A stretch of DNA of 64,000 nt, taken from Lachnospiraceae bacterium (lineage in GTDB: Bacteria; Bacillota; Clostridia; Lachnospirales; Lachnospiraceae). This document shows positions 12,251 through 48,550 of the stretch, in pieces; positions within the stretch are counted from its first letter, which is position 1, and each line of letters begins with the position of its first letter. The position numbers and the translations under genes were made by a program. The stretch covers positions 21,514 to 85,513 of the forward strand of contig JAKSPC010000006.1 of assembly GCA_024405155.1 (NCBI GenBank), read 5' to 3'. The notes beneath the pieces were generated by a model. That model had not been told where the DNA came from. It worked only from the letters and a program-made list of their open reading frames with translations, and searched no databases.

Positions 12251-12520
12251 ACCGGCATGTGAGCCTCTGGGCGGTTTGAACCGTTTCCGGCTCACATAAA
12301 TACTCAATGAATTTCTGCCGATTTGAACCTTTGGGGCCCTTACCCCCGTTCCGGCTCACATTGTTCTCGAAAATCCTACTGAAATTGTTCCAAAATAGTT
12401 TACATAACTTTTACCATGTGAGCCGGACGGCGTCAAATCATGCCAGCGGCTCACATGCGAGTTTTTGACCTTTTTCAGCGTGTGAGCCGGAGCGGCCATA
12501 ATGTGCTCTGCGGCTCACAT
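12251..12520 (+). repeat. 270-bp phased nonamer/hairpin element, copy A
   Basis: Inverted nonamers ATGTGAGCC / GGCTCACAT lie at 12257, 12289, 12321 (degenerate ATTTGAACC), 12353, 12416, 12448, 12480 and 12512: steps of 32 bp with one of 63. They form four hairpins of 41 bp in two pairs, around a centre with AGTTTACATAACT (12397-12409). Some loops have inner stems, e.g. CGGTT/AACCG. The element fills the gap between the YprB-like gene and the 56-aa ORF. No protein-coding frame is supported here. Confidence 0.95.
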
Positions 12521-12596
12521 TACAGTTTCTAACAGGTCAGGCTGGTGGTTGATGTGAGAAAACCGACATCGAAAGGAACAAAAAGGGCGCGATGAT

Positions 12597-13745
12597 CTAC
12601 AATGCTGCCAGCAGCAGCTCTTTCCATTTTTCGCCGTCGGCCAGGGCTTCTTCGGTAAGTTCCGCATACCGGGTGCCGTCCTTGGTCTCATGAAAGACCG
12701 GCACAAAGACCGGCGCAGGCTCCTGGAAGAACCGCCCCTCTTTTCTGGTATAACAGGTGGCAGCCGTCGCTTTCACCCGGTGATCTGCCGGAACGAAGGA
12801 GGCCAGGGACTTGTGAACGGCCCGGTCTTCCGCCGGCAGGTAGTAGTAGTTTTTATAGTCAACGAAATAGTAACGGAGCTCGCCGCAATAGATATCCAGG
12901 CAAAGTTCCAGAAGCAGCGGATCCTCGCCGGATGCGGAAACGGTCATGCCCGGTCTTTCCTTGTAGAGCTCCTTCGGAAGGGACGTGCGGAGCTTAAACT
13001 TCACGTCCAGCACCAGGCCGCTCTTTCCCTTCACCTTCGGCACTTCGATCACTTCCGCGCTGAGGAAATCAAAGTCTCCGTCCTTTAACAGCCGGTAGCC
13101 GTACAGTTCCATGACCTTCGGCATGTCCGCCACGTCTTCCGCATTATGCAGAAGAAGGCATTTCAGGCAGTTCTCTTTCAGTTCGTCGTTTAATTCGTTA
13201 TCCTCACAGCCGCCCTTCAGGATGTTTTTAAGGCGCAGGAACTCTTCGTACACGTAGATGAGCTCGCCGCCGTCATAGGTGTCCTCCCGGCAGATGCCGC
13301 ACAGCTTTTCCACGGTCTTTAACCGCATGTTGGGCGTGCCCATGATCTCCTTGCAGGGCTTTATGAACCGGTACAGATCAAAACTGATGGTATTCTGAAA
13401 AATGTCTCCCAGTCCGTACTGGGTCCCCACGGACTTAAGGTAGGGGATGTCGAACGTATCGCCGTTGTAGGAAACGAGGATGGGCCTGCCGGCAGACGCC
13501 CGGGAATTCACCAGGTCTTTAAAAGATCTGAGCACCACCATCTCCTCACCGGGCGTTTCGGCAAAGAACTGCCGAAGCACCCAGCCGCCGTCCTCAAAAG
13601 TGGCCGTGCCGATAAGATAAAGCTGAGAGCTCCCTGCCTTAAGCCCCGTGGTCTCGATGTCAAAAAACACGATCCTCTCTTTCGGGCCGACAAGGGAAAA
13701 ATCAAAAGCGGATTCTGTTGTGATCTTCTGTTCTGTTTTTATCAT
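12597..13745 (-). CDS. YprB-like RNase H-fold exonuclease
   Basis: 382 aa. The DEDD nuclease core is visible: FFDIETTG near residue 30, LVSYNGDTFDIPYL, and HNAEDVADM. This matches the YprB ribonuclease H-like domain. The substrate is unknown; related proteins act on nucleic acid 3' ends. It lies 5 bp from ApbE, so the two are co-transcribed with ruvA. The C-terminal half has no recognisable domain. Confidence 0.8.
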   Translation of the reverse strand: MIKTEQKITTESAFDFSLVGPKERIVFFDIETTGLKAGSSQLYLIGTATFEDGGWVLRQFFAETPGEEMVVLRSFKDLVNSRASAGRPILVSYNGDTFDIPYLKSVGTQYGLGDIFQNTISFDLYRFIKPCKEIMGTPNMRLKTVEKLCGICREDTYDGGELIYVYEEFLRLKNILKGGCEDNELNDELKENCLKCLLLHNAEDVADMPKVMELYGYRLLKDGDFDFLSAEVIEVPKVKGKSGLVLDVKFKLRTSLPKELYKERPGMTVSASGEDPLLLELCLDIYCGELRYYFVDYKNYYYLPAEDRAVHKSLASFVPADHRVKATAATCYTRKEGRFFQEPAPVFVPVFHETKDGTRYAELTEEALADGEKWKELLLAAL

Positions 13746-13749
13746 AATA

Positions 13750-14748
13750 TTATTCTTCTATGTAGAACGCCTTATAATCCGTCTGGTGCGCGGCATTCCA
13801 GGCGGAAAGCATGGTCTCTGCCTTATCCCGTCCGAGGACCAGGGCTGCCGTGGCCAGACAGTCGCAGACGAAGGAGGACGGGCCGGAAACGGTGACGCTT
13901 GCAAGGCCCGATCTTGCCGGATAGCCGGTGTCGGGATCCAGGATGTGATGATACCGAACGCCGTCTGCTTCAAAATACCGCTCGTAGGTGCCTGCGGTGA
14001 CCACGGAAATGTCATCCGCTTCCAGAGCCGTCACGGCTGCCTCTTTCCCGGAAGGGTCTTTTACGCCGATGCGAAACGGCGTGCCGTCCGCATTCTTACC
14101 CACGGTCTGTATGTTGCCGCCCAGGTCGATGATGGCGGAAGTGACGCCCGCGCTCACCAGCTCTTCCTTCATCCGGTCGGCGATATAGCCTTTTGCAAAA
14201 GCGCCGGGTTCTATTTTCGTTTCTTCATTTCCTGCGGCGAAATAAGCCTCTCCGCCCGAAACTTCTGCCCCGCTGATCTCCCAGGAGGCATTTTGGCTTT
14301 TATGAAGAGCGTCTGCCACTTCTGATACCTCGGGGACCGTGGTGCGGTTTTTGATGTCCCACAGTTTTGTGAGGGGACGGATGCCGGGCCAGAGGGCGCC
14401 GCCGGTAAACGTTTCCATCTCTTTTGCCTGCGCCAGCATGTCCGCGGTCTCGGCGGAAATCCGTACTTGCGCTTCACTTCTGTGATTGATGTTCCAGATG
14501 TCGGAGCCTTCCCGGTTGGCGTCAAGAAGGTCGTCGTATCTGCGGAGCACCATGGCGGCACGGTCTGCCGCTTCGGAAAGATCGCCGTCCCCGGCGTATA
14601 CGGTAATGGCACAGAAGGTATCCAACGCGTAGACGTCTTTTATCACCGGCTCTGCCCGGTGCGTGCGCAGAGCAAAAAAAGCACCGGCAGCAATCACTGC
14701 CGCCGATGCGATGCCTATTCCGATGATCTTCTTTACGCTGTCTTTCAT
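13750..14748 (-). CDS. apbE: FAD:protein FMN transferase, membrane-anchored
   Basis: ApbE family, about 332 aa: AGAFAKGYIADRM in the form PGAFAKGYIAD, then DLGGNIQTVG, and YHHILDPDTGYP with TAGTYERYF. Known: it attaches FMN by a phosphoester bond to Thr/Ser of target proteins outside the membrane and uses FAD and Mg. A TTG at 14787 would extend the frame by 13 residues; I prefer the ATG at 14748, which places a clean N-terminal transmembrane anchor right after MKDSVKK. No strong ribosome site marks either start. Its flavoprotein target is not in the window. Confidence 0.85.
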   Translation of the reverse strand: MKDSVKKIIGIGIASAAVIAAGAFFALRTHRAEPVIKDVYALDTFCAITVYAGDGDLSEAADRAAMVLRRYDDLLDANREGSDIWNINHRSEAQVRISAETADMLAQAKEMETFTGGALWPGIRPLTKLWDIKNRTTVPEVSEVADALHKSQNASWEISGAEVSGGEAYFAAGNEETKIEPGAFAKGYIADRMKEELVSAGVTSAIIDLGGNIQTVGKNADGTPFRIGVKDPSGKEAAVTALEADDISVVTAGTYERYFEADGVRYHHILDPDTGYPARSGLASVTVSGPSSFVCDCLATAALVLGRDKAETMLSAWNAAHQTDYKAFYIEE

Positions 14749-14798
14749 AGTGACAAAAATGCCGTTCCCCCGCGTTTCGCCGGTCAAGTCCGGGACGA

Positions 14799-15419
14799 TC
14801 AGCGTATGGCCTTCAGAGCCGCTTTCAGAAGTTCTTCCGTGGTCATGCCTTCCTGAAGCGGAACGGCGCCTACGGCCCGGCCGGCTTCCATGCGGCTGTA
14901 GCCCAGCATGGTCAGCGCGTCGATGGCTTCGGCCACGGGGCCTTCGCCCATGGGGGAGGCAGCACCCGCGCTCTCGAAAATGACCGCCGTGGGATCACTG
15001 TATCCCGCTTCCTTGCTGAGTTTGTCACGAAGATCCAGGATCACCCGCTCTGCCGTCTTCTTGCCGATGCCGGGAGCCTGGCTGATGGATTTGGCGTCTC
15101 CGGTCATAATGGCCATGCGCAGGTCGGAGGGCTTCAGCACGCTTAAGATGCCCAGAGCTCCCTTGGGGCCGATGCCGTTCACGGAAATGAGCTGAATGAA
15201 CATCTCCCTGTCTTCCCTTGTGAGGAAGCCGAACAGGCTCTGACCGTCCTCTTTCACGCTGAAATAGGTGTGGATCTTCACTTCCACACCCAGACCGGGC
15301 AGTGACGGCAATACGGAGGAAGGTACGCTGATCTCATACCCCACGCCCGCGGCCTCCACCACGATGGTGCCGGTCCCTATATTCAGTTCCTCCAGAGTTC
15401 CTTTGATATATGCGTACAT
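14799..15419 (-). CDS. ruvA: Holliday junction branch migration protein RuvA
   Basis: 206 aa. It begins MYAYIKGTLEEL; GVGYEI and FLTREDREMF fit the OB-fold domain, and VNGIGPKGAL and APGIGKKTAERV are the two helix-hairpin-helix motifs. The C-terminal domain III (TMLGYSRMEAGRAV) would contact RuvB. Normally directly followed by ruvB; here ApbE, the YprB-like nuclease, a repeat element, a small ORF and a nucleotidase separate them. Confidence 0.94.
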   Translation of the reverse strand: MYAYIKGTLEELNIGTGTIVVEAAGVGYEISVPSSVLPSLPGLGVEVKIHTYFSVKEDGQSLFGFLTREDREMFIQLISVNGIGPKGALGILSVLKPSDLRMAIMTGDAKSISQAPGIGKKTAERVILDLRDKLSKEAGYSDPTAVIFESAGAASPMGEGPVAEAIDALTMLGYSRMEAGRAVGAVPLQEGMTTEELLKAALKAIR

Positions 15420-15431
15420 AACGTCTCCTGC

Positions 15432-16982
15432 TCAATATGACGGTACGGGAGTGGGTCTTACGGGATCGAAGATCTTTGAGGTATCGTCCCACAGATCCGT
15501 AAATCTGCCTTTGTTCTCCGTCATCTCATACCAGAAATTGTAGCCGTCCAGGGCGCGCCGGCCGGTGCGCAGGCTGTGGCTTCCCACCTGCACCCAGGTC
15601 TTTGCGGAATCCACGTTGCAGAAATACCGGAACCCCAGATCGTAGAGATAATTGAACTTTTCCCGGCATCCGGCCTTCGCCTGATTATCCGCTTCGTAGC
15701 CTCTCCAGTCGCCGATATCCGCGCCTTTGGGGTAGATCAGGATATCCGCGTCCTTCCCGGTGGCCTCTTTGATGAGGCTGTTCACGTTGCGGTCCCACTT
15801 GTCGGAATCTTCCTTCAGCGCGCCCACGCTCATGGCACCCATGTCACGGTGGCCCCAGGAATGGGATCCCAGGTCGTAACCGTCCTCGTACAGTGCCCTC
15901 AGCACCTTCACGGCCTCCTTCCGTTCCGCTTCCACGTCGTGGCCGCCTTCCACCTTGTGTTCCTTGTAGTTTTCGGGAAGATAGGTCTCGTCGGTGCGGT
16001 AGCCCAGCACGCCGTTATAGCCGGTGAATACCAGACAGGCCTTGTGCCCGTGATAGGAAAAATCCGGATGCTCATCGATGAATTTATCCAGAATGGGAAC
16101 CAGGTCGTAGTCGCCCGTGGACTCGTTCCCTTCTTTGTCCGTATAGTGCAGCGTGGGCCTTCCGTCCTCGCCGATGATCATCTTATCGGCAAAGCCGTCT
16201 CCCTTCATGTACTCGTAATAGCACACGTCGTCCTCGCTCATGACGAAAGCCTTCTTGCCGGGAGGCAGCATGATGTCGCCTTCCACCATCTTTTCGGTAC
16301 CGTCGTCCTGCTTCTCCATGTGTCCCATGTCGTGGAGGGAAATGAGCACGTACCCCCGCTCATACATGGAAGCAAGGATCGCCTTGAATTCCGGGATGGA
16401 GGTCATCAGGGAATTGTAGCCTCCGGGATTGGAGCTTTTCGTAAAGGCATATTCCGCATCCACGGGAAGGATGTGGAAGAAAATGTGCGTCACGTCATGC
16501 GGGTCGAAACGGACCAGCGTGGACTTTGTCTCTTCTGTCGAAGCAATGAATGACTTTACGTCTTCCCGCTCCATAAGCTCTGTGTCGCTCTTTGCAAGCT
16601 CCAGGGCTCCGTCATAGTCGTACTGCGCCGCCAGAAGGCCTGCCGCCTGAAGGAGCGCTTCCGCTTTTGCCGCCGCAGCCTCGGTGGTGGGTTCCTCCGT
16701 GGTGGTCTCTTCCGTGGAAACGGTCTCTGCCGGAGTGCTTTCCGCGCTTCCGCCCTTATTCATCAGTTTTTTCGCAAGGAAAAATGCCCCCACGATCACC
16801 AGAGCGGCGATCACAAAGGCGATCAGCAGCTGAATGCCCGTATTGTTCTTTTTCCTGCGGCGCCTTTTGGAAGCGCGTGCCCGGGTGGACGCGCTGCCGT
16901 CCGCCGCTCTGCGTGCAGAACGGGTGGTCTCATATCGTGCACGGCTCTGCCGCGCTCTTTCTCTTCTCTCTTCGGGGGTCAA
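15432..16982 (-). CDS. Membrane-anchored polysaccharide deacetylase-like protein
   Basis: 516 aa. A very basic N-terminal tail (about 45 residues, Arg/Lys rich) precedes one transmembrane helix (about 50-70), then a Thr/Glu/Pro linker, then an extracytoplasmic domain. GSHSWGHRDMG resembles the SHTxxH metal motif of NodB-type deacetylases, and YDLGFRYFCNVD resembles their C-terminal strand. The domain call is moderate, since other NodB motifs are not clear. It is likely a wall-modifying enzyme; substrate unknown. It lies 12 bp upstream of ruvA. Confidence 0.65.
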   Translation of the reverse strand: MTPEERRERARQSRARYETTRSARRAADGSASTRARASKRRRRKKNNTGIQLLIAFVIAALVIVGAFFLAKKLMNKGGSAESTPAETVSTEETTTEEPTTEAAAAKAEALLQAAGLLAAQYDYDGALELAKSDTELMEREDVKSFIASTEETKSTLVRFDPHDVTHIFFHILPVDAEYAFTKSSNPGGYNSLMTSIPEFKAILASMYERGYVLISLHDMGHMEKQDDGTEKMVEGDIMLPPGKKAFVMSEDDVCYYEYMKGDGFADKMIIGEDGRPTLHYTDKEGNESTGDYDLVPILDKFIDEHPDFSYHGHKACLVFTGYNGVLGYRTDETYLPENYKEHKVEGGHDVEAERKEAVKVLRALYEDGYDLGSHSWGHRDMGAMSVGALKEDSDKWDRNVNSLIKEATGKDADILIYPKGADIGDWRGYEADNQAKAGCREKFNYLYDLGFRYFCNVDSAKTWVQVGSHSLRTGRRALDGYNFWYEMTENKGRFTDLWDDTSKIFDPVRPTPVPSY

Positions 16983-17078
16983 GCTGCTTCCTCCTGTTCA
17001 AAACGGTAACGGTGCGGTGCACCGGCCATGTGAAATAATCACCAAAACTACATGGTTCAATTTTAGCACATCTGCTTC

Positions 17079-17150
17079 TTGAATTCCATCCGCTTTCGGT
17101 TTACAATTACTTTAATATTTTAAAGTCCGAAAATTTTACAGTTGTAAAAT
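17079..17150 (+). promoter_or_regulatory. yerC promoter and palindromic operator
   Basis: A promoter with -35 TTGAAT (17079-17084), a 17-bp spacer and -10 TACAAT (17102-17107) faces yerC. Downstream, ATTTTACA-GT-TGTAAAAT (17133-17150) is a perfect 8-bp palindrome directly before the AAAGGAG ribosome site. Its position suggests an operator, perhaps for YerC itself. Confidence 0.6.
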
Positions 17151-17165
17151 CCGAAAGGAGACCAT

Positions 17166-17465
17166 ATGAATTCCAAAATCAAGACCGATTCCGTAGAAGC
17201 CCTGTTTGATGCCGTACTTACCTTAAAGACCAAGGAAGACTGCTACAAGTTCTTCGAGGACGTATGCACCATCAAGGAGCTCCTGGCCATGGCACAGCGC
17301 TACGAAGTGGCAAAGCTTCTGACCAAGAAGATGACCTATCTGGACATCGCGGAAAAGACCGGCGCTTCCACCGCCACGATAAGCCGCGTGAACCGTTCTC
17401 TGGAATACGGTGCCGACGGGTACCAGATGGTGTTCGAGCGCCTGGGGATCACGAAAAAAGACTGA
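17166..17465 (+). CDS. yerC: YerC/YecD family TrpR-like transcriptional regulator
   Basis: 99 aa. The middle (CTIKELLAMAQRYEVAKLL) and the helix-turn-helix (MTYLDIAEKTGASTATISRV) match the TrpR-related YerC family of Firmicutes. Ligand and targets are not known to me. It is the only plus-strand gene in the first 58 kb and runs toward rmuC, ending 8 bp from it. AAAGGAG is 5 bases before the ATG. It is possibly self-regulated through the palindrome upstream. Confidence 0.88.
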   Translation: MNSKIKTDSVEALFDAVLTLKTKEDCYKFFEDVCTIKELLAMAQRYEVAKLLTKKMTYLDIAEKTGASTATISRVNRSLEYGADGYQMVFERLGITKKD

Positions 17466-17472
17466 TCCCGGT

Positions 17473-18792
17473 TTACATCTCTGTTTCGGATATCCCCAGA
17501 AGCTCTTTTGCCTCCAGGGGATCCAGTTCCTCCACGGAAGAAAGCTTCCGGTTGATGATCTCTGTCCGGTGTTTCAGCTCGCCGTTGGCCTTTTTGGCCA
17601 GGTCGATCCTGTCACCGGCTTTTTCTATGAGTTCACTTAACGTGCCGTACTGCGTCTTGATGGCCGAAAGCAGCTTTAAGATGTTCTGACTGTCCTTGTT
17701 GACCGCCATGTACCGGAAACCGATGGCCAGGGAATTAAGGAGTGCCGCAATGGTAGTGGGTCCCGTGACCACCACGTGATCCTCCTTCTGCAGCGTCTCC
17801 ACCAGGCCGGGGATGCGCAGCACCTCCGCGTAAAGCCCCTCGGTGGGCAGGAACATGATGCCGAAATCCGTGGTATGGGGCGGATCCAGATATTTGTCAC
17901 GGATGTCGCGTGCTTCCTGACGGATCCTCTGCTCCATCTCCTTTACCGCTCTCTTTACCTCTTCCGCGTCCGCCGCTTCCGAAGCATCCACGATCCGCTC
18001 GTATATTGTGGCGGGAAACTTGGAGTCGATGGGCAGATACAGAAATCCGCCGCCGTCCTTATCCGGGATTTTCACGGCAAATTCCACCGCGTCCCGGTTC
18101 TGACCGTCGCCGGTCTTGGTCACCACGTTCTTTTCATAAAGCCCGGCGGTAAAAACGTTTGCCAGGATATTTTCCAGCTGCATCTCCCCGAAGATGCCCC
18201 TGGTCTTTACGTTGGAAAGCGTGCGGTTCAGCGCGCTCACTCCCGTCTCCAGCCGGGTGAGCTCTCCCAGAGAAACGTAGAGCTTGTTCAACTGTTCTCC
18301 CACGTTTTTAAAGCTCTGGTCCAGCCGCTCGTTAAGCCCCGTATCCAGACGCTTGTTGATGCCTTCCTGAATGTCCGTAAGCTTCTCTCTGTTCGCCTGC
18401 TGCAGTTCCTTAAGGCTCTCCTTTAAGACCGTCTCCGTCTTTTCCCGGTACTCGTCCAGCCGGTCCATCTGATCCTTCTGCATGGCAAGCATCTGACGGG
18501 ACTGCTTCTCGCTGTCGTTTTCGATCATTTCCGCAACTTCCCTGCGGTTCTTGCGGTTCTCGTCCGCATCCTGCAGAAGGCGCTTTCCGATATCCTCCCG
18601 GATCTCGCCTACCCTGCCGCTCACCATTTCGGTGATGTGATCTTCCGTATCGTCCAGAAGATTTTCCATGTCGGAGGCGATGACCTCACGGAACCGGGAA
18701 CCGGTGCGGCGTAAAAGAAGCACCAGAATAAGACCCATCATCAGAAGGATGAGTCCCAGCATGATGAAGATTATAAGTTCATTTCCCTGCAT
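17473..18792 (-). CDS. rmuC: DNA recombination protein RmuC homologue
   Basis: 439 aa. One N-terminal membrane helix, a long coiled coil (about residues 30-180), then the RmuC domain with FAVKIPDKDGG, LPIDSKFP, FLPTEGLYAEVLR and GPTTIAALLNSLAIGFR. Known: the RmuC domain is nuclease-like; loss of rmuC raises the rate of inversions at short repeats. That link is of interest in a region so rich in inverted repeats, but it is only a suggestion. It overlaps rdgB by 22 bp. Confidence 0.9.
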   Translation of the reverse strand: MQGNELIIFIMLGLILLMMGLILVLLLRRTGSRFREVIASDMENLLDDTEDHITEMVSGRVGEIREDIGKRLLQDADENRKNRREVAEMIENDSEKQSRQMLAMQKDQMDRLDEYREKTETVLKESLKELQQANREKLTDIQEGINKRLDTGLNERLDQSFKNVGEQLNKLYVSLGELTRLETGVSALNRTLSNVKTRGIFGEMQLENILANVFTAGLYEKNVVTKTGDGQNRDAVEFAVKIPDKDGGGFLYLPIDSKFPATIYERIVDASEAADAEEVKRAVKEMEQRIRQEARDIRDKYLDPPHTTDFGIMFLPTEGLYAEVLRIPGLVETLQKEDHVVVTGPTTIAALLNSLAIGFRYMAVNKDSQNILKLLSAIKTQYGTLSELIEKAGDRIDLAKKANGELKHRTEIINRKLSSVEELDPLEAKELLGISETEM

Positions 18793-19388
18793 AAAAATTC
18801 TCTCACTTTCCTGAGCACCTTGCCTCTGTGAGAAACGGCGTTTTTCTCTTCCGGGGTCAGCTCTCCGCCGGTCTTCCCGTATTCCGGCACGTAGAAGATC
18901 GGATCATATCCGAACCCTTCGCCGCCCTTTGCCTCTTCGGCGATACTTCCCCGCATCTCGCTCTCCGCGTCGATCACCCGGCCGTCCGGCAGGACGGTGC
19001 ACACGTGGCAGACGAAGGAAGCGCCGCGGTCACCGTCGCGGGCGCCTTTCAGAAGATCAAGGATCGCTCTGTTTTTCTCATTATACGGCGTGGAGTGTCC
19101 CATAAAACGGGCTGACTTTACGCCGGGCTCCCCGCCCAGGAAATCGATGCACAGTCCCGAGTCGTCCGCCATGACGATGGTATCCTTCTCTTCTCCCGCC
19201 GCCTTCAGCTTTTCATACACGTCCATGGCCTTGATGCGGGCATTTTCGGCAAACGTCTCCCCGTTTTCCTCCGGATCGGAGACCATGCCGATATCCTTAA
19301 GCGTCAGCACCTCGACGGAAATGTCCGACAGTACTTCCTTGAACTCTTTTGCTTTTCCTTTGTTGTTGGTGGCAACGATGATCCTCAT
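18771..19388 (-). CDS. rdgB: XTP/dITP diphosphatase (RdgB/HAM1)
   Basis: 205 aa. The N-terminal ATNNKGKAKEF nucleotide-binding motif, MADDSGLCID, and GEGFGYDPIF followed by SHRGKVL are the HAM1 family markers. It removes deaminated purine triphosphates (XTP, dITP) from the pool. It overlaps the methyltransferase gene upstream by 4 bp and rmuC downstream by 22 bp. Confidence 0.94.
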   Translation of the reverse strand: MRIIVATNNKGKAKEFKEVLSDISVEVLTLKDIGMVSDPEENGETFAENARIKAMDVYEKLKAAGEEKDTIVMADDSGLCIDFLGGEPGVKSARFMGHSTPYNEKNRAILDLLKGARDGDRGASFVCHVCTVLPDGRVIDAESEMRGSIAEEAKGGEGFGYDPIFYVPEYGKTGGELTPEEKNAVSHRGKVLRKVREFLCREMNL

Positions 19389-22902: not shown

Positions 22903-22945
22903 ACGATATCTCCTCGTTAAATAGTGTTACTGAACGCTGATGTGA

Positions 22946-23166
22946 CATGCAGGCAGGTGCATGCGCATTGCGGAGGCTTTTCAGATTTTCAAGGTTTCCC
23001 AGTCCGGAGTGCGCTTGGGGGTGCAAGACGTCCAGTGGACGTCTGCTCTGCACGGACCGGAGCGGAGCGTAGAGAGCGGGGCCCCGAGCGCGCTTACGCA
23101 GGACGCAGGAAAACTTAGAAAATCGAAAACCGGAGCAACTAGCGCTTGCAATGCGTGCATGGCGCA
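22946..23166 (+). repeat. Long imperfect hairpin element, copy 2 (upstream of aspS)
   Basis: The left arm 22959-22999 and right arm 23108-23149 are nearly identical to copy 1 and inverted to each other. The centre differs: it includes the palindrome AGACGTCCAGTGGACGTCT and a GC-rich stretch. The element lies 44 bases before the aspS start and 14 bases after hisS, the same relation to genes as copy 1. Confidence 0.85.
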
Positions 23167-23179
23167 GAAGCGTTAAAAA

Positions 23180-27147: not shown

Positions 27148-27148
27148 G

Positions 27149-29920: not shown

Positions 29921-30002
29921 GGATGTATATACAGAAACATCCAAAAAAGCAAACGGCAATTGTGCAAAAGCTATGAATCCGGCTTACACCCCTTCACTGC
30001 TA

Positions 30003-30193
30003 TATGTCCACAGAGCCAAACTACCGCTCCGGACACGCACGACTTCGTACGCTGTATGTCCAAGCGGCCGAAATCCCTGCTGTGGACATGCGCTGCCTCG
30101 TTTGCTATATGTCCACAGAGCCAAACTACCGCTGTGGACACGCACGGCCCCGTACACTGCGTTTTCATAAAGCCGAATTCTCCGCCGCAGACA
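30003..30193 (+). repeat. Tandem palindromic array, ~53-bp period, four units
   Basis: Units start at about 30003, 30055, 30108 and 30161. Each pairs TGTCCACAG (30005, 30057 degenerate, 30110) with CTGTGGACA (30027 degenerate, 30080, 30132, 30185 degenerate) 22-23 bp later, giving 9-bp stems. Units 1 and 3 are nearly identical over 50 bases. The array abuts element copy B. No gene lies here. Confidence 0.85.
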
Positions 30194-30210
30194 TACAGAA
30201 AGGTCTAATA

Positions 30211-30480
30211 ACCGGCATGTGAGCCGCTTAGTTGTTTAAGCCGCTTCCGGCTCACATAAACACTCACGAAATTTTTGCCGATTTGGACCTCTGAGGCCTT
30301 TACCCCCTTTCCGGCTCACATCACTCTCGAAAATCCTGCCGAAATCATCCCAAATCAGTTTACATAACTATTTTTATGTGAGCTAAATGCCGGCAAAACG
30401 CGTCTCCGGCTCACATCCCGGTTTTTGGGCTTGGAACGCATGTGAGCCGGAACGGCCAAAATGCGTCCTGCGGCTCACAT
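30211..30480 (+). repeat. 270-bp phased nonamer/hairpin element, copy B
   Basis: Nonamers at 30217, 30249, 30281 (degenerate ATTTGGACC), 30313, 30376 (ATGTGAGCT), 30408, 30440 and 30472 repeat the spacing of copy A to the base. The central AGTTTACATAACT is at 30357-30369. The first loop re-forms an inner stem with other bases (CTTA/TAAG). It lies between the CdaR promoter and the mntP terminator. Confidence 0.95.
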
Positions 30481-30504
30481 GGAGGTTTCTCACACAAACG
30501 CATG

Positions 30505-30534
30505 CACTCCTTATTTCCAGGGCGCGTAAGCGCC
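30505..30534 (+). repeat. 30-bp motif shared with 57727-57756
   Basis: CACTCCTTATTTCCAGG followed by a small GGCGC/GCGCC hairpin occurs here and, reversed with one base change and one indel, at 57727-57756. The surrounding 30481-30710 is GC-rich intergenic DNA with short inverted repeats and no gene I can support. Confidence 0.7.
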
Positions 30535-30710
30535 CCATCGCATCCACTGGACGTCAGGGGAACTGCAGTTCCGCCTGCAAAGTGAGCACGGAGTGCGAAG
30601 CGGCGCAGATGCGGAATGCAGTTTGCCAGACGGACACGCACAGCGATACCGTGGGTGCGAGCAAAGCGAGCAGCCAGGCGAGGTGTGCGGACCCGCGTAC
30701 CAATGGACTA

Positions 30711-32576: not shown

Positions 32577-32850
32577 TTGTAACCGCAAGCCCTAAAAACA
32601 GCCTTGCGGATGAAAAATCTCTCCCGGCCAATGTTTGCGCCGCCGTGACTTTCCATCCGAAAGCCCGAAAAAAGGCCTCGCGGATGAAATTTTCCTCTCA
32701 ACCTATGTTTGCGTCACTGTGACTTTCCATCCGAAAGGCCGAAATACAACCTCGCGGATGAAAAATCTCTCCCGGCCTATGTTTGCGTCGCCGGGACTTT
32801 CCATCCGAAAGCCCGAAAAAAGGCCTCGCGGATGGAATTTTCTTTTGCCG
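32577..32850 (+). repeat. Tandem hairpin array, exact 74-bp period (array D1)
   Basis: Four units start at 32577 (degenerate), 32651, 32725 and 32799, exactly 74 bp apart. The three good units begin TTTCCATCCGAAAG and return with CCTCGCGGATG to form hairpins. The spacer, about half the unit, is also repeated. The array fills the 331-bp gap between DUF362 and cvfB; no gene is here. Confidence 0.9.
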
Positions 32851-37607: not shown

Positions 37608-37619
37608 AGAAAACCTCCT

Positions 37620-39515: not shown

Positions 39516-39533
39516 AACACGCCTCGCAAAAAA

Positions 39534-42186: not shown

Positions 42187-42206
42187 AACAAAAAACCTCT
42201 GACGTT

Positions 42207-42239
42207 CCTGCCTATTGGCAGGTTATTAGGTATATTATA
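42207..42239 (-). promoter_or_regulatory. Promoter and operator-like palindrome of the M20-YfcC operon
   Basis: An extended -10 TGTTATAAT (TATAAT at 42234-42239, minus) lies upstream of the M20 gene. The 16-bp perfect palindrome CCTGCC-TATT-GGCAGG (42207-42222) covers the expected transcript start. This is a likely repressor site. Confidence 0.65.
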
Positions 42240-42277
42240 ACATAACCCGTCACCAAATGGCAGGTTTTGTTCCGAAA

Positions 42278-42292
42278 GGGGCCATGCGCCCC
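42278..42292 (-). terminator. Weak hairpin after the ABC transporter operon
   Basis: GGGGC/GCCCC with a 5-base loop lies about 50 bases after the second permease; CCTTTCGG follows on minus. No long U-run. Confidence 0.3.
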
Positions 42293-42339
42293 GCAGGCAG
42301 CGAGGGGATCAGAACGCCGCCGGTCACTCCGCGCTTTCC

Positions 42340-43260
42340 TCAGTACGGGATGCCTGACGCCTTCGGCGCATGGGACTTTTTGGAAAAGATCACCAGGATC
42401 AGAAGGGAAATGATGTACGGCAGCATGTTGTACACCGCTCCCGGAATGTTCAATGCGTTTAAGAAACCGATGCCCATGTAGACGTTGCTGAGTGCCCGGA
42501 AAAAGCCGAAAATAAGCGCCGCCAGCGCGATCTTCACCGGATCCCACTGACCGAAGATCATCACAGCCAGAGCCAGGAATCCGTACCCGGCCACGCCCTT
42601 GTCGAACTGCCACGACGAAACAGAACTGGTCACGTAGGCAAGACCGGCAAGGCCGGAGAGCGCCCCGGAAATGAGAACGCCGATGTAGCGCATCCATCTT
42701 ACGTTCACGCCGGCGGAAGCCGCCGCTTTCGGGTTCTCGCCGCAGGCACAGAGCCGGAGACCGAAGCGGGTCTTTTTGAAAACGTAGACCGAAAGCACCG
42801 CGACGGCCACGGCGATCAGGAAGAAAACGTCCACCCGGAAAACACCCGCCGTGAAAGAAAGGGCTTCCTTTTCTTCGATATAGGTAATGGTGGGGCTCGC
42901 TTTTCCCGTCACGTCAAGATTCACGGCCTTTACGATCACCGTCGCCGCAGCCACTGCCAGCATGTTGACGGCAGTGCCGATAAGGGTCTGATCCGCCTTA
43001 TAGGTCACGGCAGGAACGGAAAGCAGGAGCGACCACGCCATGCCGGCGGCCACCGCCGCCAGAAGCGTACAGATGACCATCACGAAAGGCGCCGCATGGG
43101 AAAGCAGTTTCATGGTCAGCGTGCCGCCCAGGGCTCCCATCACCATCATGCCCTCGATACCAATGTTCATGACGCCGGAATGTTCGCTGAAGCAGCCTCC
43201 CATGGCCGCCAGAAAAAGTACCGTGGCAAATATGTGCGTATATTGGATCAGCAGGATCAT
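42340..43260 (-). CDS. Nucleoside ABC transporter permease 2 (NupQ/YufQ-like)
   Basis: 306 aa, about eight membrane helices. GVMNIGIEGMMVMGAL is the BPD_transp_2 signature of simple-sugar/nucleoside permeases. The open frame extends to 43515, but GGAGG seven bases before the ATG at 43260, and the ATGA overlap with permease 1, set the start. It is the last gene of the operon BMP-ATPase-permease-permease. Confidence 0.9.
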   Translation of the reverse strand: MILLIQYTHIFATVLFLAAMGGCFSEHSGVMNIGIEGMMVMGALGGTLTMKLLSHAAPFVMVICTLLAAVAAGMAWSLLLSVPAVTYKADQTLIGTAVNMLAVAAATVIVKAVNLDVTGKASPTITYIEEKEALSFTAGVFRVDVFFLIAVAVAVLSVYVFKKTRFGLRLCACGENPKAAASAGVNVRWMRYIGVLISGALSGLAGLAYVTSSVSSWQFDKGVAGYGFLALAVMIFGQWDPVKIALAALIFGFFRALSNVYMGIGFLNALNIPGAVYNMLPYIISLLILVIFSKKSHAPKASGIPY

Positions 43261-44327
43261 GACGCCGCCTCCTTCTTTCTTCTCTTCGCGATAAGCTGAC
43301 TTAAGAATGCCGCAAAGGCGCTGGCATAGATCGTTACGGCGATCACTAAAGACGCCACCTCCTGCGGATAGATCAGACGGTCCATGTGCAGACTGCCCTG
43401 CTGGATATGGCTGATGAAATACGACGCCAGCAGCGCGCCGAAGGGATCCAGCGCGCCCAGATAGGCGGCCGCGATGCCGTTGAAGCCTATAGCGGGCACG
43501 ATGGCTGCCGAACACTGCCAGGTCTCGGCCCCGGAAAGGAACAGCGCCCCCGCAGCCGCGCCGGAAAATGCCCCGGCGATAAACATGGTGATCACCACGT
43601 TCCGCTTTTCAAACATGCCGGAAAGCTCCGCCGCCGCAGGATTGAGGCCCACTGCCCTGGTCTCGAACCCCAGCCTGGTGCGCGCCAGGATGAACTTTGC
43701 AAGAAACGCCAGCGCCGGCGTAAGAAGCAGCGCCAGCGTCACCGTCTCGTTTCCGGAAAACAGCCTGTCAAGTCCCAGAGAAGGGATCAGGGCATCCGGC
43801 CGGTTGGTCACCAGATCCAGCGTGTAGGTGTTGCTGTCAGTGTAGGGCGTCAGCACCGTGTTTGCCGTATACAGAAGGATCCAGTTCATAAGGATCCCGG
43901 AGATCACTTCATTCACGCTGCGGTAGGCTTTCAGAAGGCCGGCAAGCGCGCCGGCAATGCCGCCGGCGAGGATGGCCGCCGGAAGGCATACCCACCAGGG
44001 GCAGTGACAAGCGATGGCCAGATACAGCGCCGCGATGGCGCCTGCCGTAAACTGCCCGGAAGCACCGATATTAAAAAGCCCCGCGCTCTTTGCGTAGATC
44101 ACCGAAATGGCGCAGAGCGAAAGAGGCGCCGCCTGCACCAGCGTCCCTCCGAAATATTCCAAAACCACGTCCGCCCTGGGAAAGTAGAAGAAATTCTGAA
44201 GCATGGTGACAAAGGCGACCCCCGCCCCCGAAGGATCCACCACCAGAAGGACCACGAACCCCAGGACGAGCTCTATCGCCACGCAGAGGAGCGAGGCGGC
44301 ACCGATACCGATCTTGCGTTTTCTCAT
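43257..44327 (-). CDS. Nucleoside ABC transporter permease 1 (NupP/YufP-like)
   Basis: 356 aa, about ten membrane helices. AGLFNIGASGQFTAGAIAAL is the family signature; GFNGIAAAYLG is near the C-terminus. It forms the membrane channel with permease 2. It overlaps the ATPase by 4 bp and permease 2 by 4 bp, so all are translated together. Confidence 0.9.
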   Translation of the reverse strand: MRKRKIGIGAASLLCVAIELVLGFVVLLVVDPSGAGVAFVTMLQNFFYFPRADVVLEYFGGTLVQAAPLSLCAISVIYAKSAGLFNIGASGQFTAGAIAALYLAIACHCPWWVCLPAAILAGGIAGALAGLLKAYRSVNEVISGILMNWILLYTANTVLTPYTDSNTYTLDLVTNRPDALIPSLGLDRLFSGNETVTLALLLTPALAFLAKFILARTRLGFETRAVGLNPAAAELSGMFEKRNVVITMFIAGAFSGAAAGALFLSGAETWQCSAAIVPAIGFNGIAAAYLGALDPFGALLASYFISHIQQGSLHMDRLIYPQEVASLVIAVTIYASAFAAFLSQLIAKRRKKEAAS

Positions 44328-45850
44328 TTCGTCATCCTCCGTGCTCCCGTCATGTAAAGTCCCAGTTCTTCCCTGGTCACCTTATCCGGCGTAAACTCGC
44401 CCACGATCTCTCCCTCATACATCACAAGGATCCTGTCGGAAAGCGACATGACCTCGGAAAGCTCCAGGCTTACCAGAAGGATCGCCTTCCCTTCGGCCCG
44501 TTCCTTAAGAAGCGCTCTGTGAATGTTTCCCGTGGCCAGAAGATCCACGCCGCGGACCGGCTGAACGGCCACGATGAGCGAGGGATCCCTGTCCAGTTCT
44601 CTTCCCACCACGGCTTTCTGCTGATTTCCGCCGGAAAGGCTTCCGAAAAGGGAGCGGATCCCGTCCGCGCTCCTTACGTCTCTCTCCTTCGTGATCTTTT
44701 CGGCATACCGGGCGACGGCACCCGTTTCCATCACACCGTTTTTACAGAATTCCGGTTCCCGGTATCTCTTTAAAATAATGTTTTCCGCCAGCGTAAAGTC
44801 CGGGATCGCCCCGTCCCGCAGACGGTCCACGGGGATCAGTCCCATTCCCATGTCGATCCGTTCCCGTATGGCGGAGCGTGTGATGTCTTTTCCCAGGAAC
44901 GTAACACTTCCGGTCACGGGCTTACTCTTTCCGCTCACCACTTTCACCAGTTCATCCTGGCCGTTTCCGTCGATGCCGGCAATGGTGACGATCTCGCCTT
45001 TGCGGACCGTAAACGAAACGTCCTTCAGCTTCGTCTTCTTTGTCTGCGGATCCGCGAAGCCTATTCCGGAGAGGGTAAGCACCGGCTCTCCGGGAACGGA
45101 AGGCTCCTTCACGATGGTAAGGTCTACCTTCTGCCCCACCATCATTTCGGAAAGTTCCTCGACGGTGGTCTCGGTCGCATTCACGGTCCCCACGTATTCG
45201 CCCTTCCGTATGACGGTGCAGCGGTCGGACACGGAAAGGATCTCGTTCATCTTGTGGGAAATGAACAGGATGGCTTTCCCTTCTGCCCGGAGTCCCCGCA
45301 TGATCTTTAATAGTTCTTCCGCCTCCTGCACGGTAAGCACGGCCGTGGGCTCGTCAAAGATCAGCACCTCGTTGTCGCGGTAGAGCATCTTTAAGATCTC
45401 CACCCTCTGCTGCATGCCCACGGTGATATCGCTCACCACTGCGTCCGGGTCCACCTTGAGCCCGTACTTTTCCGAAAGCGCCATTACCTTCTTCCTGGCG
45501 GCAGCCCGGTCGATGGCCGTCCCCTTCATGGTCTCGGCGCCCAGGATGATATTGTCCAGCACCGTAAAGCACTGCACCTGGCGGAAATGCTGGTGCACCA
45601 TGCCGATCCCCAGAGCCGTCGCGTCATTGGGGTCGCTGATGACGACCTTCCTGCCGTTTCGGAAGATCTCTCCTTCGTCCGGCTGTAAGAGCCCGAACAG
45701 AATGTTCATCAGCGTGGATTTTCCCGCGCCGTTCTCGCCAAGCAGGGCGTGGATCTCTCCCGCCCGCAGCGTAAGCGTTATGTCTTTATTTGCTGCCAGA
45801 TCCCCGAAATACTTGGAGATCCCGCGCATTTCCACTGCGAATTGTTCCAC
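44324..45850 (-). CDS. Nucleoside ABC transporter ATPase (NupO/YufO-like), double domain
   Basis: 508 aa with two ABC domains. The first has Walker A GENGAGKST, signature VGMQQRVEIL and Walker B LIFDEPTAVL. The second has a changed P-loop region (GIDGNGQDEL) and signature LSGGNQQKAVVGREL, as usual for RbsA-type ATPases, where the second site is degenerate. It starts immediately after the BMP lipoprotein stop. Confidence 0.92.
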   Translation of the reverse strand: MEQFAVEMRGISKYFGDLAANKDITLTLRAGEIHALLGENGAGKSTLMNILFGLLQPDEGEIFRNGRKVVISDPNDATALGIGMVHQHFRQVQCFTVLDNIILGAETMKGTAIDRAAARKKVMALSEKYGLKVDPDAVVSDITVGMQQRVEILKMLYRDNEVLIFDEPTAVLTVQEAEELLKIMRGLRAEGKAILFISHKMNEILSVSDRCTVIRKGEYVGTVNATETTVEELSEMMVGQKVDLTIVKEPSVPGEPVLTLSGIGFADPQTKKTKLKDVSFTVRKGEIVTIAGIDGNGQDELVKVVSGKSKPVTGSVTFLGKDITRSAIRERIDMGMGLIPVDRLRDGAIPDFTLAENIILKRYREPEFCKNGVMETGAVARYAEKITKERDVRSADGIRSLFGSLSGGNQQKAVVGRELDRDPSLIVAVQPVRGVDLLATGNIHRALLKERAEGKAILLVSLELSEVMSLSDRILVMYEGEIVGEFTPDKVTREELGLYMTGARRMTK

Positions 45851-47110
45851 TTAGAGTATCGTCCCTTCCCGTTTTTCCAGTTTAAAGTTGATCGTAGGCA
45901 AATGATCCGTAGCCGGATCGGAGGTAAGCGTGCCGTCCAGAAGTTTCTTAAGAAGCGTCTGATAATCCGCCACGCCGAAGGTCTCATTCCACTGAGTGCT
46001 TTCCACGGGAAGCCCCACGTAGTTGAGCGCGGGATCCTCCGCCGAGGCAAGGCCCAGTTTTTCCTGTTTCCCGGCAATGGTTTCGTCCCATTTCCCTTCA
46101 TATATGGTCTTAAGAGAAAACCTTACGCAGGCGCCCAGATCCTTCAGTGCACTGGTGAGTGCCAGTCCCTTGCGGTAGGCGTCCAGTTCCTCCTTCTGAT
46201 CGATGTCCACGCCGATCACCTTTGACCCGCTCCTGGCAGCTGCCTCCGCCACGGAGGAAACGATGCTTCCGCCGCAGGAAAAGACCACGTCCGTGCCGTT
46301 CTGGCACCAGGTCTCCATAGCTGCCGTGATCTCCGCGGAAGCCGCGAACTGGCCCGCATAGGCATACCGCACAAGGACCTTATCTGCATTGCCCGTTTCC
46401 TTTGCCGCGTCACGGATCCCCTGCAGAAAGCCGTATCCATAGCGCATGACCGCGGGGATCTCAATGCCGCCTATGAATCCCAGGCTTTGATAGCCCAGGC
46501 GCACCGCCGCATAGCCGGCAAGATACCCGGCGATATCTTCGCGGAAGGTGACCAGATAGGTATTTTTCTGCCCCAGATACTCGCTGATATCATAATGAGA
46601 GGGATCACCGTCATAGTTTACTCCCAGTGTCTGTGAAAGCAGGTCCGCAGACGCCATATCCAGTCCTATGAATCTGACATCCGGATATTTGAGAGACATC
46701 TCTCCCACAGTCTCCGCATACTGGTTGCCGCAGCCTATAATGACGTTGTAGCCGGAAGCGATCGCCGCGTCGAAAATGTTCCGGTAGGAATACCTTGTTG
46801 CCTTATCCGGCGCATAGTAGGTATAGGGGATCCCGTATTCCTTACAGAAATCCCGGCAGGCTTCATAGGCCTGCTGATTGAATCCCTTGTCGTCGATGCC
46901 GCTGGAATCCGCGATCATTGCCACCCTCATGGGTCCGTCTTCTTCCGTCACTTTTTTCAGCGGCCCGCAGGAAGCAAGAGCGAGCACCATGGCACAGCAG
47001 ATAAGCACCGCCGCGATCCTTGCCGCGAGCCCTGCTCCGTGCGCCGCCGCACGCGCCGCGCTTTCTTCTTTGTGATCAATTAATGTCTGTCGATATCGGA
47101 ATTTCCGCAT
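45851..47110 (-). CDS. BMP-family substrate-binding lipoprotein
   Basis: 419 aa. The signal segment ends LALASC, the lipobox Cys near residue 48 after an unusually long basic N-terminus of about 33 residues. The BMP fold shows MIADSSGIDDKGFNQ and KYPDVRFIGLD. Known: BMP/PnrA-type proteins bind purine nucleosides for this ABC family. It leads the operon. Confidence 0.9.
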   Translation of the reverse strand: MRKFRYRQTLIDHKEESAARAAAHGAGLAARIAAVLICCAMVLALASCGPLKKVTEEDGPMRVAMIADSSGIDDKGFNQQAYEACRDFCKEYGIPYTYYAPDKATRYSYRNIFDAAIASGYNVIIGCGNQYAETVGEMSLKYPDVRFIGLDMASADLLSQTLGVNYDGDPSHYDISEYLGQKNTYLVTFREDIAGYLAGYAAVRLGYQSLGFIGGIEIPAVMRYGYGFLQGIRDAAKETGNADKVLVRYAYAGQFAASAEITAAMETWCQNGTDVVFSCGGSIVSSVAEAAARSGSKVIGVDIDQKEELDAYRKGLALTSALKDLGACVRFSLKTIYEGKWDETIAGKQEKLGLASAEDPALNYVGLPVESTQWNETFGVADYQTLLKKLLDGTLTSDPATDHLPTINFKLEKREGTIL

Positions 47111-47178
47111 TTTCTATGTCCTTATTTCTGAGTATGATACAGTCTCAACGTATTTTTCTGTCATGGCGTCCCGCTGAT

Positions 47179-48141
47179 TCAGCGGTTCACCACGTTTACC
47201 GGCGTACCGGCAAGGAACTTTTCGATGTTTCCGAAAGTAATGTCCATCAGCCGCTTCCTTGCTTCCACGGTGGCCCAGGCAATGTGAGGCGTGATGATGC
47301 AGTTTGGCGCCGAAAGCAGCGGATCATCCGCGGGGATGGGCTCTTCGGAAACCACGTCCACGCCCGCCGCCCGGATCTTTCCGGACTTAAGCGCTTCCGC
47401 CACGTCCGCCTCGTTGATCACCGGCCCCCGGGACGCGTTGATGAGGATCACACCGTCCTTCATTTCGGCAATGGTCTCTTTGCAGATAAGCCCCCGGGTC
47501 TCCTCGTTCAGAAGACAGTGCAGCGTGATCACGTCGGACCGCGCCAGCAGCGTGTCAAAGTCCACATACTCCACATAGGAAAAACCTTCTTTGATGTGAG
47601 GCGTATAGGTGATCACCTTCATGCCAAGGGCATCGGCCGCCTTTGCCACCGCTTTCCCTATGGTACCGAAGCCGATAATGCCCAGGGTCTTTCCGTCCAG
47701 TTCCGTAAGGTCGCAGTCCCAGAAGGAAAACGTCCTGCTTTCCGTCCATTTGCCCTCGTGCACCGCCTGGCTGTGATGACCGATCTGCAGACAGATCTCC
47801 AGCAGAAGCCCTATCACATGCTGGCACACGGACATGGTGCTGTAGGAAGGAACGTTGCACACCGCAATGCCCTTTTCCTTAGCATACGCCACGTCGATCA
47901 CGTTGTATCCCGTGGCCAGCACCTGGATCATGCGAAGGTTCCTGCAGGCATCCATCACCCGTTTCGTGATGGGGATCTTGTTGGTAAGCACCACCTGGGC
48001 GTCGCCGATGAAACCGATGACCTCTTCCTCCGTATTCTCTCCGTTAAAGTCAGCCATCTCATAGCTGCCGAACCTGTTTAATTCATCCCATACGTCCCGG
48101 GAATACCCCAGCGTATTTCCGTCCAGAACCGCGATCCTCAT
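47179..48141 (-). CDS. D-2-hydroxyacid dehydrogenase
   Basis: 320 aa. The NAD loop GFGTIGKAVAKAADALG, the catalytic Arg in INASRGPVINEADV, the Glu in GVDVVSEEP and the His in ITPHIAWAT are all present. It reduces a 2-keto acid to the D-hydroxy acid, or acts as a hydroxypyruvate reductase. A longer frame from 48180 exists; AAGGAG nine bases before the ATG at 48141 decides the start. Confidence 0.9.
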   Translation of the reverse strand: MRIAVLDGNTLGYSRDVWDELNRFGSYEMADFNGENTEEEVIGFIGDAQVVLTNKIPITKRVMDACRNLRMIQVLATGYNVIDVAYAKEKGIAVCNVPSYSTMSVCQHVIGLLLEICLQIGHHSQAVHEGKWTESRTFSFWDCDLTELDGKTLGIIGFGTIGKAVAKAADALGMKVITYTPHIKEGFSYVEYVDFDTLLARSDVITLHCLLNEETRGLICKETIAEMKDGVILINASRGPVINEADVAEALKSGKIRAAGVDVVSEEPIPADDPLLSAPNCIITPHIAWATVEARKRLMDITFGNIEKFLAGTPVNVVNR

Positions 48142-48216
48142 ATCAAAACACTCCTTACAGAAAACAATAATTTCGCCCAAAAAGCACAGCGGCCGTATGG
48201 CCCGTGCTCCAAGGCG

Positions 48217-48222
48217 ATTATA
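48217..48222 (-). promoter_or_regulatory. -10 box of the hydroxyacid dehydrogenase promoter
   Basis: TATAAT on minus lies about 75 bases before the start codon; the -35 (TTTCCC) is poor and overlaps the terminator hairpin just upstream. Confidence 0.5.
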
Positions 48223-48224
48223 GC

Positions 48225-48252
48225 AAAAAAAGATCTCCCGGGAAAGAGATCT
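48225..48252 (-). terminator. Terminator after sortase and element copy C
   Basis: AGATCTC / GAGATCT stem with an 8-base loop, followed on minus by seven T. It ends the sortase transcript after it has read through the repeat element. Confidence 0.85.
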
Positions 48253-48278
48253 CTAAGGCAAATTCAACTCCTTATGTT

Positions 48279-48550
48279 ATGTGAGCCGCAGACCGTGTTT
48301 TAGCCGTTCCGGCTCACATGCGATCAGAAGCCAAAAACTGCGATGTGAGCCGGAGGAACGTTTAAACGCCGAGAGGTTCACATACAGAAAGTTATGTAAA
48401 CTATTTTAAGACGATTTCGGCATGATTTTCGGGACCGATGTGAGCCGGAAAGGGGGGGTCAGAGCGCCAGAGGTCCAAATCGGCAAAAATTTCGTGAGCT
48501 TTTATGTGAGCCGCACGCGGTAAAAACCGCTCTCCGGCTCACATGCCGGT
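48279..48550 (-). repeat. 270-bp phased nonamer/hairpin element, copy C (reversed)
   Basis: Sites start at 48279, 48311, 48343, 48375, 48438, 48472, 48504 and 48536: steps of 32, 32, 32, 63, 34, 32, 32. The 34 comes from two extra G in one loop. The central 13-mer is at 48390-48402. The first loop (minus sense) has a GCGGT/ACCGC inner stem. Its left end overlaps the last codons of the sortase gene. Confidence 0.95.

Follow-up and report, generated by a model that had tools for sequence, protein, structure and literature searches.

Phased nine-base half-sites around an XerD-arm match in an intergenic repeat of a Lachnospiraceae bacterium: a candidate protein-binding array

The stretch analysed here (the window) comprises 64 kb of a Lachnospiraceae bacterium (contig JAKSPC010000006.1, positions 21,514 to 85,513); the assembly behind it totals 2.03 Mb in 46 contigs and is 93% complete. 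It carries three copies of a 270-bp element, which we term E1, composed of eight nine-base sites (nonamers) of alternating orientation arranged about a short centre.

12251..12520, plus strand: E1 copy A, 270 bp; sites at 12257, 12289, 12321 (variant), 12353, 12416, 12448, 12480 (GTGTGAGCC), and 12512
30211..30480, plus strand: E1 copy B, 270 bp; sites at 30217, 30249, 30281 (variant), 30313, 30376 (ATGTGAGCT), 30408, 30440, and 30472
48279..48550, minus strand: E1 copy C, 272 bp; two extra bases in the second loop

An earlier reading of the window from its letters (the original prediction) had named these positions, with copy C in reverse, and both points were confirmed. Its site offsets of 0, 32, 64, 96, 159, 191, 223, and 255 hold when counted from 12257 and 30217; the starts that it gave, 12251 and 30211, lie 6 bases ahead of the first nonamer. 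The loop in which copy C was said to differ proved to be the second, with the two extra bases in place, while the claim that copies A and B agree to the base is true of their spacing and not of their sequence, in which 210 of 270 bases are identical. The end of copy C overlaps an open reading frame (ORF) at 48539-49516 on the minus strand by 12 bases. Outside the three copies, the window holds a single further exact nonamer, GGCTCACAT at 56544.

A genome-wide search, put forward with the original prediction as the way to learn whether E1 has further copies, the lack of which would have counted against it, returned a total of 37: 35 of full length, one without its last 64-bp unit (C16; C-numbers denote contigs and L-numbers loci), and one cut by a contig end (C32). 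With 40 of 53 first-look candidates scored, at least 54 matches were obtained, those besides the 37 copies being short or reverse matches. A scan with a 16-mer from the best conserved block likewise gave 37 matches within E1 copies, of which 34 were exact and 3 carried one or two changes; outside the copies it gave one match with 1 mismatch (C13:23644) and 22 with 3 mismatches. Among the full copies, 30 measure exactly 270 bases, four measure 269, and copy C measures 272. Fragments also occur, namely the first nonamer pair alone at C18 and C25 and the last pair at C1:15187, and at C21 one additional 64-bp unit is joined to E1. By the calls of a simple coding-potential caller, E1 is intergenic, since in none of 36 copies does the overlap with a called gene exceed 20 bases; some copies stand at the end of a contig and have only one known neighbour. 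On C43, four copies at 15286, 33764, 51724, and 69792 are separated by intervals of 18.5, 18.0, and 18.1 kb, a regularity seen on no other contig. On C15 (L018), the pairs at 6167/7521 and 15897/17392 lie 1,354 and 1,495 bp apart with similar flanks, as if tandem duplicated.

Conservation within E1 is concentrated in the nonamers. In a 31-row alignment, which includes the C16 copy without its last unit, nonamer columns are 98% conserved and other columns 81%, and sites 1, 2, 4, 6, and 8 are exact in 30, 30, 30, 31, and 28 rows, respectively. The third site, described as degenerate in the original prediction, is in fact a fixed variant: it reads ATTTGGACC in 30 of 31 rows and lies within the best conserved stretch of the element, TTTTGCCGATTTGGACCTCTG. 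This fixed variant block breaks the symmetry of E1 and gives the element a direction.

12313..12333, plus strand: best conserved block of copy A, around site 3; differs from the 16-mer of the block scan by 2 changes
30273..30293, plus strand: best conserved block, copy B
48468..48488, minus strand: best conserved block, copy C

At the left border, AAA precedes ACCGGC in 35 or 36 of 36 copies and nothing is shared further out; the right border, approximately CGCAGTTTTT, is softer. Outside the nonamers, pairwise identity between copies ranges from 50 to 100%, with a median of 73%. Of the substitutions private to one of 35 copies, 6 fall within the 72 columns of the nonamers, 97 within the 188 of the spacers, and 3 within the 12 of the centre; private mutations thus avoid the nonamers, and the sites look selected copy by copy. 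Insertions and deletions (indels) are rare. Gap openings per substitution amount to 0.005 in E1 (35 copies) compared to 0.028 in a separate repeat, R4 (9 copies), a comparison in which related copies are not independent.

30490..30700, plus strand: R4, a separate GC-rich repeat found 3' of several E1 copies and used as the indel control

R4 has 22 further matches in the genome, and six of its matches reach the end of a contig, which makes it a probable cause of breaks in the assembly.

The eight sites fit a helical repeat of 10.61 with a resultant of 0.993, falling at turns 0, 3, 6, 9, 15, 18, 21, and 24. Whole-turn distances, conserved spacing, and rare indels, by which a phased array is recognised, were all found in E1. 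Together with the mutations that avoid the nonamers, they support the original prediction that the sites would face one side of the helix, as for a bound protein. The same prediction had taken inner stems that re-form with other bases as a sign of folded RNA or single-stranded DNA. Here the data disagree. Among 35 copies (34 distinct), inner-stem pairing and covariation did not rise above shuffles, 171 of 500 shuffles pairing as well for all named stems, 304 for stem 1, and 351 for stem 3, and RNAalifold on E1 gave changes on both sides in 1 of 39 pairs. Folded RNA or single-stranded DNA was therefore rejected as the basis of E1, the covariation being no better than in shuffles. That E1 is a structured RNA or a transcription terminator could still be argued from T runs after hairpins 3 and 4 on the element strand, from one terminator-like match at the edge of copy C, and from left-arm changes that are mostly of the kind keeping a G-U pair; the nonamer arms hardly vary, so they say little about pairing. 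Given stems without covariation beyond shuffles, nearly fixed loop lengths, and no Rfam covariance-model match at gathering score in the 64-kb window, we find this explanation barely credible.

Read on the opposite strand, the centre of E1, AGTTTACATAA, gives TTATGTAAACT, which is the XerD arm of the Bacillus subtilis dif site (ACTTCCTAGAATATATATTATGTAAACT); the arm as printed in an excerpt of PMC3025954 is identical to that of E1. Arms were scored with a matrix built from 29 proteobacterial dif sites listed in PMC2731167, an excerpt of which also gives the 11-6-11 register of dif. The centre reads TTATGTAAAC followed by T or C in 34 of the 36 copies examined, with near variants in two, and the best XerD arm occupies one same position in all 36, scoring 11.1 to 16.8 compared to 6.6 to 18.1 for the dif sites. 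A score of 16.8 is reached at 3 of 127,944 window positions and by each of copies A, B, and C. In the whole genome, TTATGTAAACT occurs 29 times, 22 of them inside E1; the reversed control occurs 0 times. The place of the XerC arm is site 5 plus two bases, six bases beyond the XerD arm, and the 11-6-11 register is exact.

12397..12424, minus strand: dif-like 11-6-11 core of copy A, GGCTCACATGG TAAAAG TTATGTAAACT; XerD arm exact, XerC arm poor
30357..30384, minus strand: dif-like core of copy B, AGCTCACATAA AAATAG TTATGTAAACT; both arms good, 27.0
48375..48402, plus strand: dif-like core of copy C, GGTTCACATAC AGAAAG TTATGTAAACT

A good XerC arm is present only as AGCTCACATAA, with a score of 9.8 (known sites, −3.2 to 14.6), in 5 of 36 copies including copy B, and four of these five score 27.0 for both arms. 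The median at the XerC place is 0.1, which belongs to the top 2.3% of window positions, yet only 2 of the 29 known sites score below it. A search for a separate canonical dif in this incomplete assembly found only an E1 core. Linkage between copies is lowest near columns 65 to 115 and not at the core, and Xer exchange was therefore rejected as the source of the mosaic copies. At C42 (L029, 3299-4048), an Xer-family recombinase gene without its N-terminal part lies directly 3' of an E1 copy in the same direction, its open frame running into E1.

These features invite the explanation that E1 is an Xer site-specific recombination site with accessory arms, like cer/psi, in which XerC and XerD would act at the centre and the phased sites would wrap an accessory protein. 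The exact register, the XerD arm of all 36 copies, the few copies with two good arms, the rank of the median XerC place within the window, and the adjoining recombinase gene favour it, and cer has a similar size of about 280 bp, with a core plus about 180 bp of accessory DNA according to an excerpt of PMC5357621. Against it stand the poor XerC place in most copies, the absence of any concentration of exchange at the core, and the arrays described next, of which F3 and F4 have the XerD arm only and those of family F2 and congener G017 have neither arm. We judge it quite improbable.

Arrays of like layout with other half-sites were found in the same genome and in a congener. The detector required at least three inverted 7-mer pairs of constant distance. 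In 354,709 bases of the own genome, chosen around E1 and XerD-arm matches and with some overlap, it returned 31 rows, 27 of them with ATGTGA/GAGCC-type seeds; the others were F3, F4, and two rows from one place (L030, L137), which were judged pieces of terminal inverted repeats (TIRs) and dropped. A further array, E2, lies in a TIR element without E1.

C1:180196-180703: TIR element holding E2, a different array; ATGTGA/TCACA-type sites at 190, 307, 339, 392, 424, and 456
C18: F3, TGGCATC, pairs at 0, 74, and 169
C21: F4, TTATATG, pairs at 0, 63, and 126

E2 is related to, but diverged from, a repeat of about 350 bp beside four E1 copies (family F2). Its six sites, which are all the matches of one six-variant pattern, are in phase at the E1-derived helical repeat of 10.61, and 0 of 20,000 random placements were as good. 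An XerD arm is present in F3 and F4 as well. The C18 locus is a composite that combines an E1 pair and the F3 pairs with an inverted pair ATGTGCACC/GGTGCACA and ends in an E1-like pair. In 200,000 bases of G017, the detector found four arrays with three half-sites, TAGTGGGAC (two copies), TAGCGAA, and TAACCGC, the last with near-identical spacers and possibly a plain tandem duplication. The two TAGTGGGAC arrays stay in register over 272 bases, with 83 of 90 site bases identical compared to 80 of 182 spacer bases (44%). The G017 arrays look intergenic and upstream of an ORF. For six families (E1, F3, F4, and the three of G017, F2 being left out), pair-to-pair steps of 64/95, 74/95, 63, 41/75, 52, and 53 bp are near whole turns at a helical repeat of 10.57, and 0 of 20,000 null draws were as good. 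Two detector rows in 120,000 bases of the congener G012 were CRISPR-like (clustered regularly interspaced short palindromic repeats), as at L114 100-1000, with an inverted distance of 13 and a pitch of 66 to 70; the layout of E1 is unlike these rows, and E1 was not taken for a CRISPR array. No array was detected in 22 short congener loci (84,567 bases) or in 18 loci of relatives (61,359 bases).

The sequence of E1 itself was found in 0 of 60 genomes of relatives and in 0 of 119 of the family, the latter by a sequence-only model with strict filters and 16 scored candidates in each genome. Because the 60 include G017, sequence searches evidently miss re-specified arrays; on the conservation in relatives that the original prediction had proposed to examine, the answer is no copy by sequence and a like layout with other motifs in G017. 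Plasmid and phage collections gave no match to E1, and four patterns searched in viral contigs gave 0, 2, 1, and 0 stretches. A scan of GTDB for a single pair of nonamers with the exact spacing, from which the window's own and very near records were possibly excluded, hit 4 places in unrelated taxa, with about 3 to 4 expected by chance.

Altogether, E1 is probably an intergenic protein-binding array on double-stranded DNA, with its half-sites on one helix face, a probable XerD at the centre, and chromosome organisation as the most likely role. We favour this reading somewhat above even confidence, on the sequence comparisons given above. A putative DNA-binding protein would dock on the half-sites, all on the same face, and the bound subunits may join into a single continuous or bridged complex around the centre, where XerD, or an Xer-type recombinase, would probably be held at the XerD half-site. 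XerD half-sites that mostly lack an XerC partner, placed in phased arrays between operons, would fit loop anchoring or unloading of SMC; the array may thus serve as a loop anchor, an insulator, or an SMC-unloading point between operons rather than in the control of one gene. What is conserved would be the layout, while the half-site sequence would be replaceable as a set, as the other arrays of this genome and those of G017 suggest. More tentatively, and as a possibility that we would sooner doubt than adopt, E1 may belong to a general class of chromosomal nucleoprotein arrays in the genus, symmetric sets of 8 to 10 inverted half-sites on one face, in which the half-site sequence is swapped whole between elements and species with the geometry kept; a family of array-binding proteins with rapidly changing specificity would then anchor chromosome domains, here with XerD. 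It is customary to class the intergenic repeats of bacteria as debris of hairpins or mobile elements, and here the constrained property looks like the geometry of double-stranded DNA. With several half-sites of such geometry in two species, repeats of this kind become readable as docking arrays.

Several results weigh against this interpretation. Of the 31 rows, only 15 have an exact site 5 and only 18 an exact site 7, most of the others differing at one end base, so the original prediction of the nonamer at every site but the third stands, nearly without fail, only for sites 1, 2, 4, 6, and 8. AA/TT power at 10.5 bp was matched by 31 of 300 shuffles; curvature does not follow from it, and A-tract bending was rejected as not significant at that period. 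F2 and the four G017 arrays lack the XerD arm, and F4 had been chosen for its XerD arm, which makes its link to E1 not independent. Relatives within F2 are less regular than E2, with one interval of 126 bp compared to 117, so this family does not keep its spacing to the base. Apart from E1, no exact ATGTGA/TCACAT pair at 32 bp turned up among 159 sites of the other own sequence searched or among 232 sites of the relatives' loci. In samples of G014 (183,838 bases) and G005 (280,000 bases), the detector found no array of like layout. The null of the step test was drawn on a coarser grid of helical repeats than the one used for the observed fit, and in tandem arrays (F4, TAACCGC) duplication can produce equal steps. 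Finally, because the adjoining genes and the surrounding region share one strand bias, given below, replication and gene direction cannot be told apart.

Seven E1 copies lie inside an element with the ends GTTACTGTTCAGAGG...CTCTGAACAGTAAC, six having both ends with at most 3 mismatches and the C16 copy having a degraded left end; some E1 copies have thus probably spread by transposition. An automatic scan found the ends in 5 of the seven. A 17-base inverted match at C15:6167 and a second row at C11:161 were judged chance, and 29 of 36 copies have no such ends within 500 bases. The flank at C42 is related to the TIR element and lacks the ends. A possible target duplication is present at C13:3006, with the 8-bp CCTATTGC on both sides (8/8). 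The flanking 8-mers agree at 7/8 at C14 and at C13:38757 (T-rich), are swapped between two C11 copies, and give no duplication at C6:1098 and C16 or, by eye, at other copies. On C11 (L032, 161-430 and 4532-4801), two TIR elements hold E1 in opposite orientation with CTTTATAG on crossed flanks, as after inversion of a 4-kb segment. Next to E1-bearing TIR elements are a TnpB gene (L031, 1556-2896) and a TnpB-like fragment identified by eye (L032, 4044-4433). Of the two Y1 transposases in the genome, one is IS200-like and the other resembles a REP-associated tyrosine transposase (RAYT; REP, repetitive extragenic palindromic). The latter, at C14, matches REP_Tyr_transpos with 68.1 bits, below the cut-off of 80, and its flanks bear a palindrome of their own, GGGACGGTTCTTC, without a match to E1; because this palindrome differs, a RAYT-mobilised REP was rejected.

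E1 could accordingly be viewed as a non-autonomous mobile element resembling a miniature inverted-repeat transposable element (MITE) or a bacterial interspersed mosaic element (BIME), whose transposase would recognise the hairpins and whose conservation would come from active source copies. Its high copy number, intergenic location, and signs of exchange between copies, the TIR ends with the C13:3006 duplication, and the two Y1 transposases speak for this view. The many copies without TIR ends, the distinct RAYT palindrome, the lack of GTAG in copies A to C, and the private mutations that avoid the nonamers speak against it, and the TIR element carries the different array E2 too, so E1 looks like cargo. 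We regard this explanation as unlikely. For a protein-binding array, these observations suggest that copies would have spread partly inside the TIR element and partly by exchange between copies. The statement in the original prediction that no transposase or known family fits thus holds for Rfam in the window and for the RAYT; the copies in the TIR element and the identity of the centre with the XerD arm of dif count against it.

Of 33 neighbouring genes on the ACCGGC side (31 distinct genes), 29 start on the side of E1 and read away from it, and among 30 copies with both neighbours, 23 pairs are co-directional, 6 divergent, and 1 convergent. The strand of regional genes shows the same bias (29 of 36), as does GC skew (26 of 36). 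We scanned 28 of the 31 ACCGGC-side genes, leaving out three short ones; 7 had no match, five were regulator-like, and the rest were mixed, with no common function seen among these 28. A regulon was rejected for this mixture. Were E1 an operator array, a regulator would control the operon that starts on the ACCGGC side, as the orientation of the first genes, the co-directional neighbours, the regulator-like genes, and the position of the G017 arrays 5' of an ORF might suggest. The neighbours nonetheless include MreB, SecA, GlmM, ProC, RnfC, sortase, and TnpB, among others, their distance runs from a 12-base overlap to 1,969 bp, the regional strand gives the same orientation bias, and promoter-like sites near copies A, B, and C number 3, 1, and 0, compared to 1.3, 1.1, and 0.7 in shuffles. 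An operator role is therefore very doubtful.

Other repeats lie near the E1 copies of the window.

29998..30194, plus strand: 105-bp tandem repeat (1.9 copies, 10 turns) directly before copy B, with GTGGACAT/ATGTCCAC inverted pairs

Sequence related to this repeat seems, by eye, to precede some other E1 copies. Tandem arrays of 74-bp units (7 turns) occupy 32583-32834, 57862-58137, and 60650-60820, with 0 to 4% indels and, in two of them, a palindromic core GGCC...GGCC; an array like these follows the E1 fragment on C25 (L044). A long imperfect tandem repeat at 49877-50539 lies within an ORF at 49546-50964 on the minus strand and is thus probably a low-complexity protein stretch.

Compared to known systems, the RAYT/REP, MITE, cer, and Rfam families do not fit E1 fully, and no published description of E1-like arrays was found in the open-licence literature, by mostly narrow searches that do not show absence from print. 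The nearest known kind is the BIME, which is likewise intergenic and present in many copies, with regularly spaced palindromic units of alternating orientation; as described in an excerpt of PMC2817692, BIMEs bind gyrase, IHF, and Pol I. The same excerpt describes inter-REP segments of varying length in Stenotrophomonas, whereas E1 keeps its spacing nearly to the base. BIMEs have their palindrome in common with a RAYT, whereas the RAYT here has another, and here the half-site set differs between arrays and an XerD arm stands at the centre. Unlike REPs, copies A to C have no GTAG-type tetranucleotide beside the hairpin, although some REPs in that excerpt lack GTAG too. MITEs such as Correia, BOX, RUP, and CIR resemble E1 in size, intergenic location, and the clustering of several repeat kinds, and Correia carries an IHF site (excerpt of PMC10969869); E1 differs in its eight phased half-sites and in the 29 of 36 copies without TIRs. 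The cer and psi sites share with E1 a length of about 280 bp and, by the account in PMC5357621, an Xer core with protein-bound arms, the protein binding being predicted for E1. In contrast, E1 is chromosomal, is present in 37 copies, has a mostly poor XerC arm, and bears a half-site array. The dif site has the identical XerD arm and the 11-6-11 register, but occurs once per genome with a better-matching XerC arm. In B. subtilis, XerD unloads SMC at the terminus (excerpts of PMC12322038 and PMC8242196), and although the excerpts place this action at the terminus and make no mention of phased arrays, it would give a use for the XerD-only half-sites of E1. If XerD does sit at the centre, E1 would connect a repeat lying between genes with the unloading of SMC or with Xer control at places other than dif.

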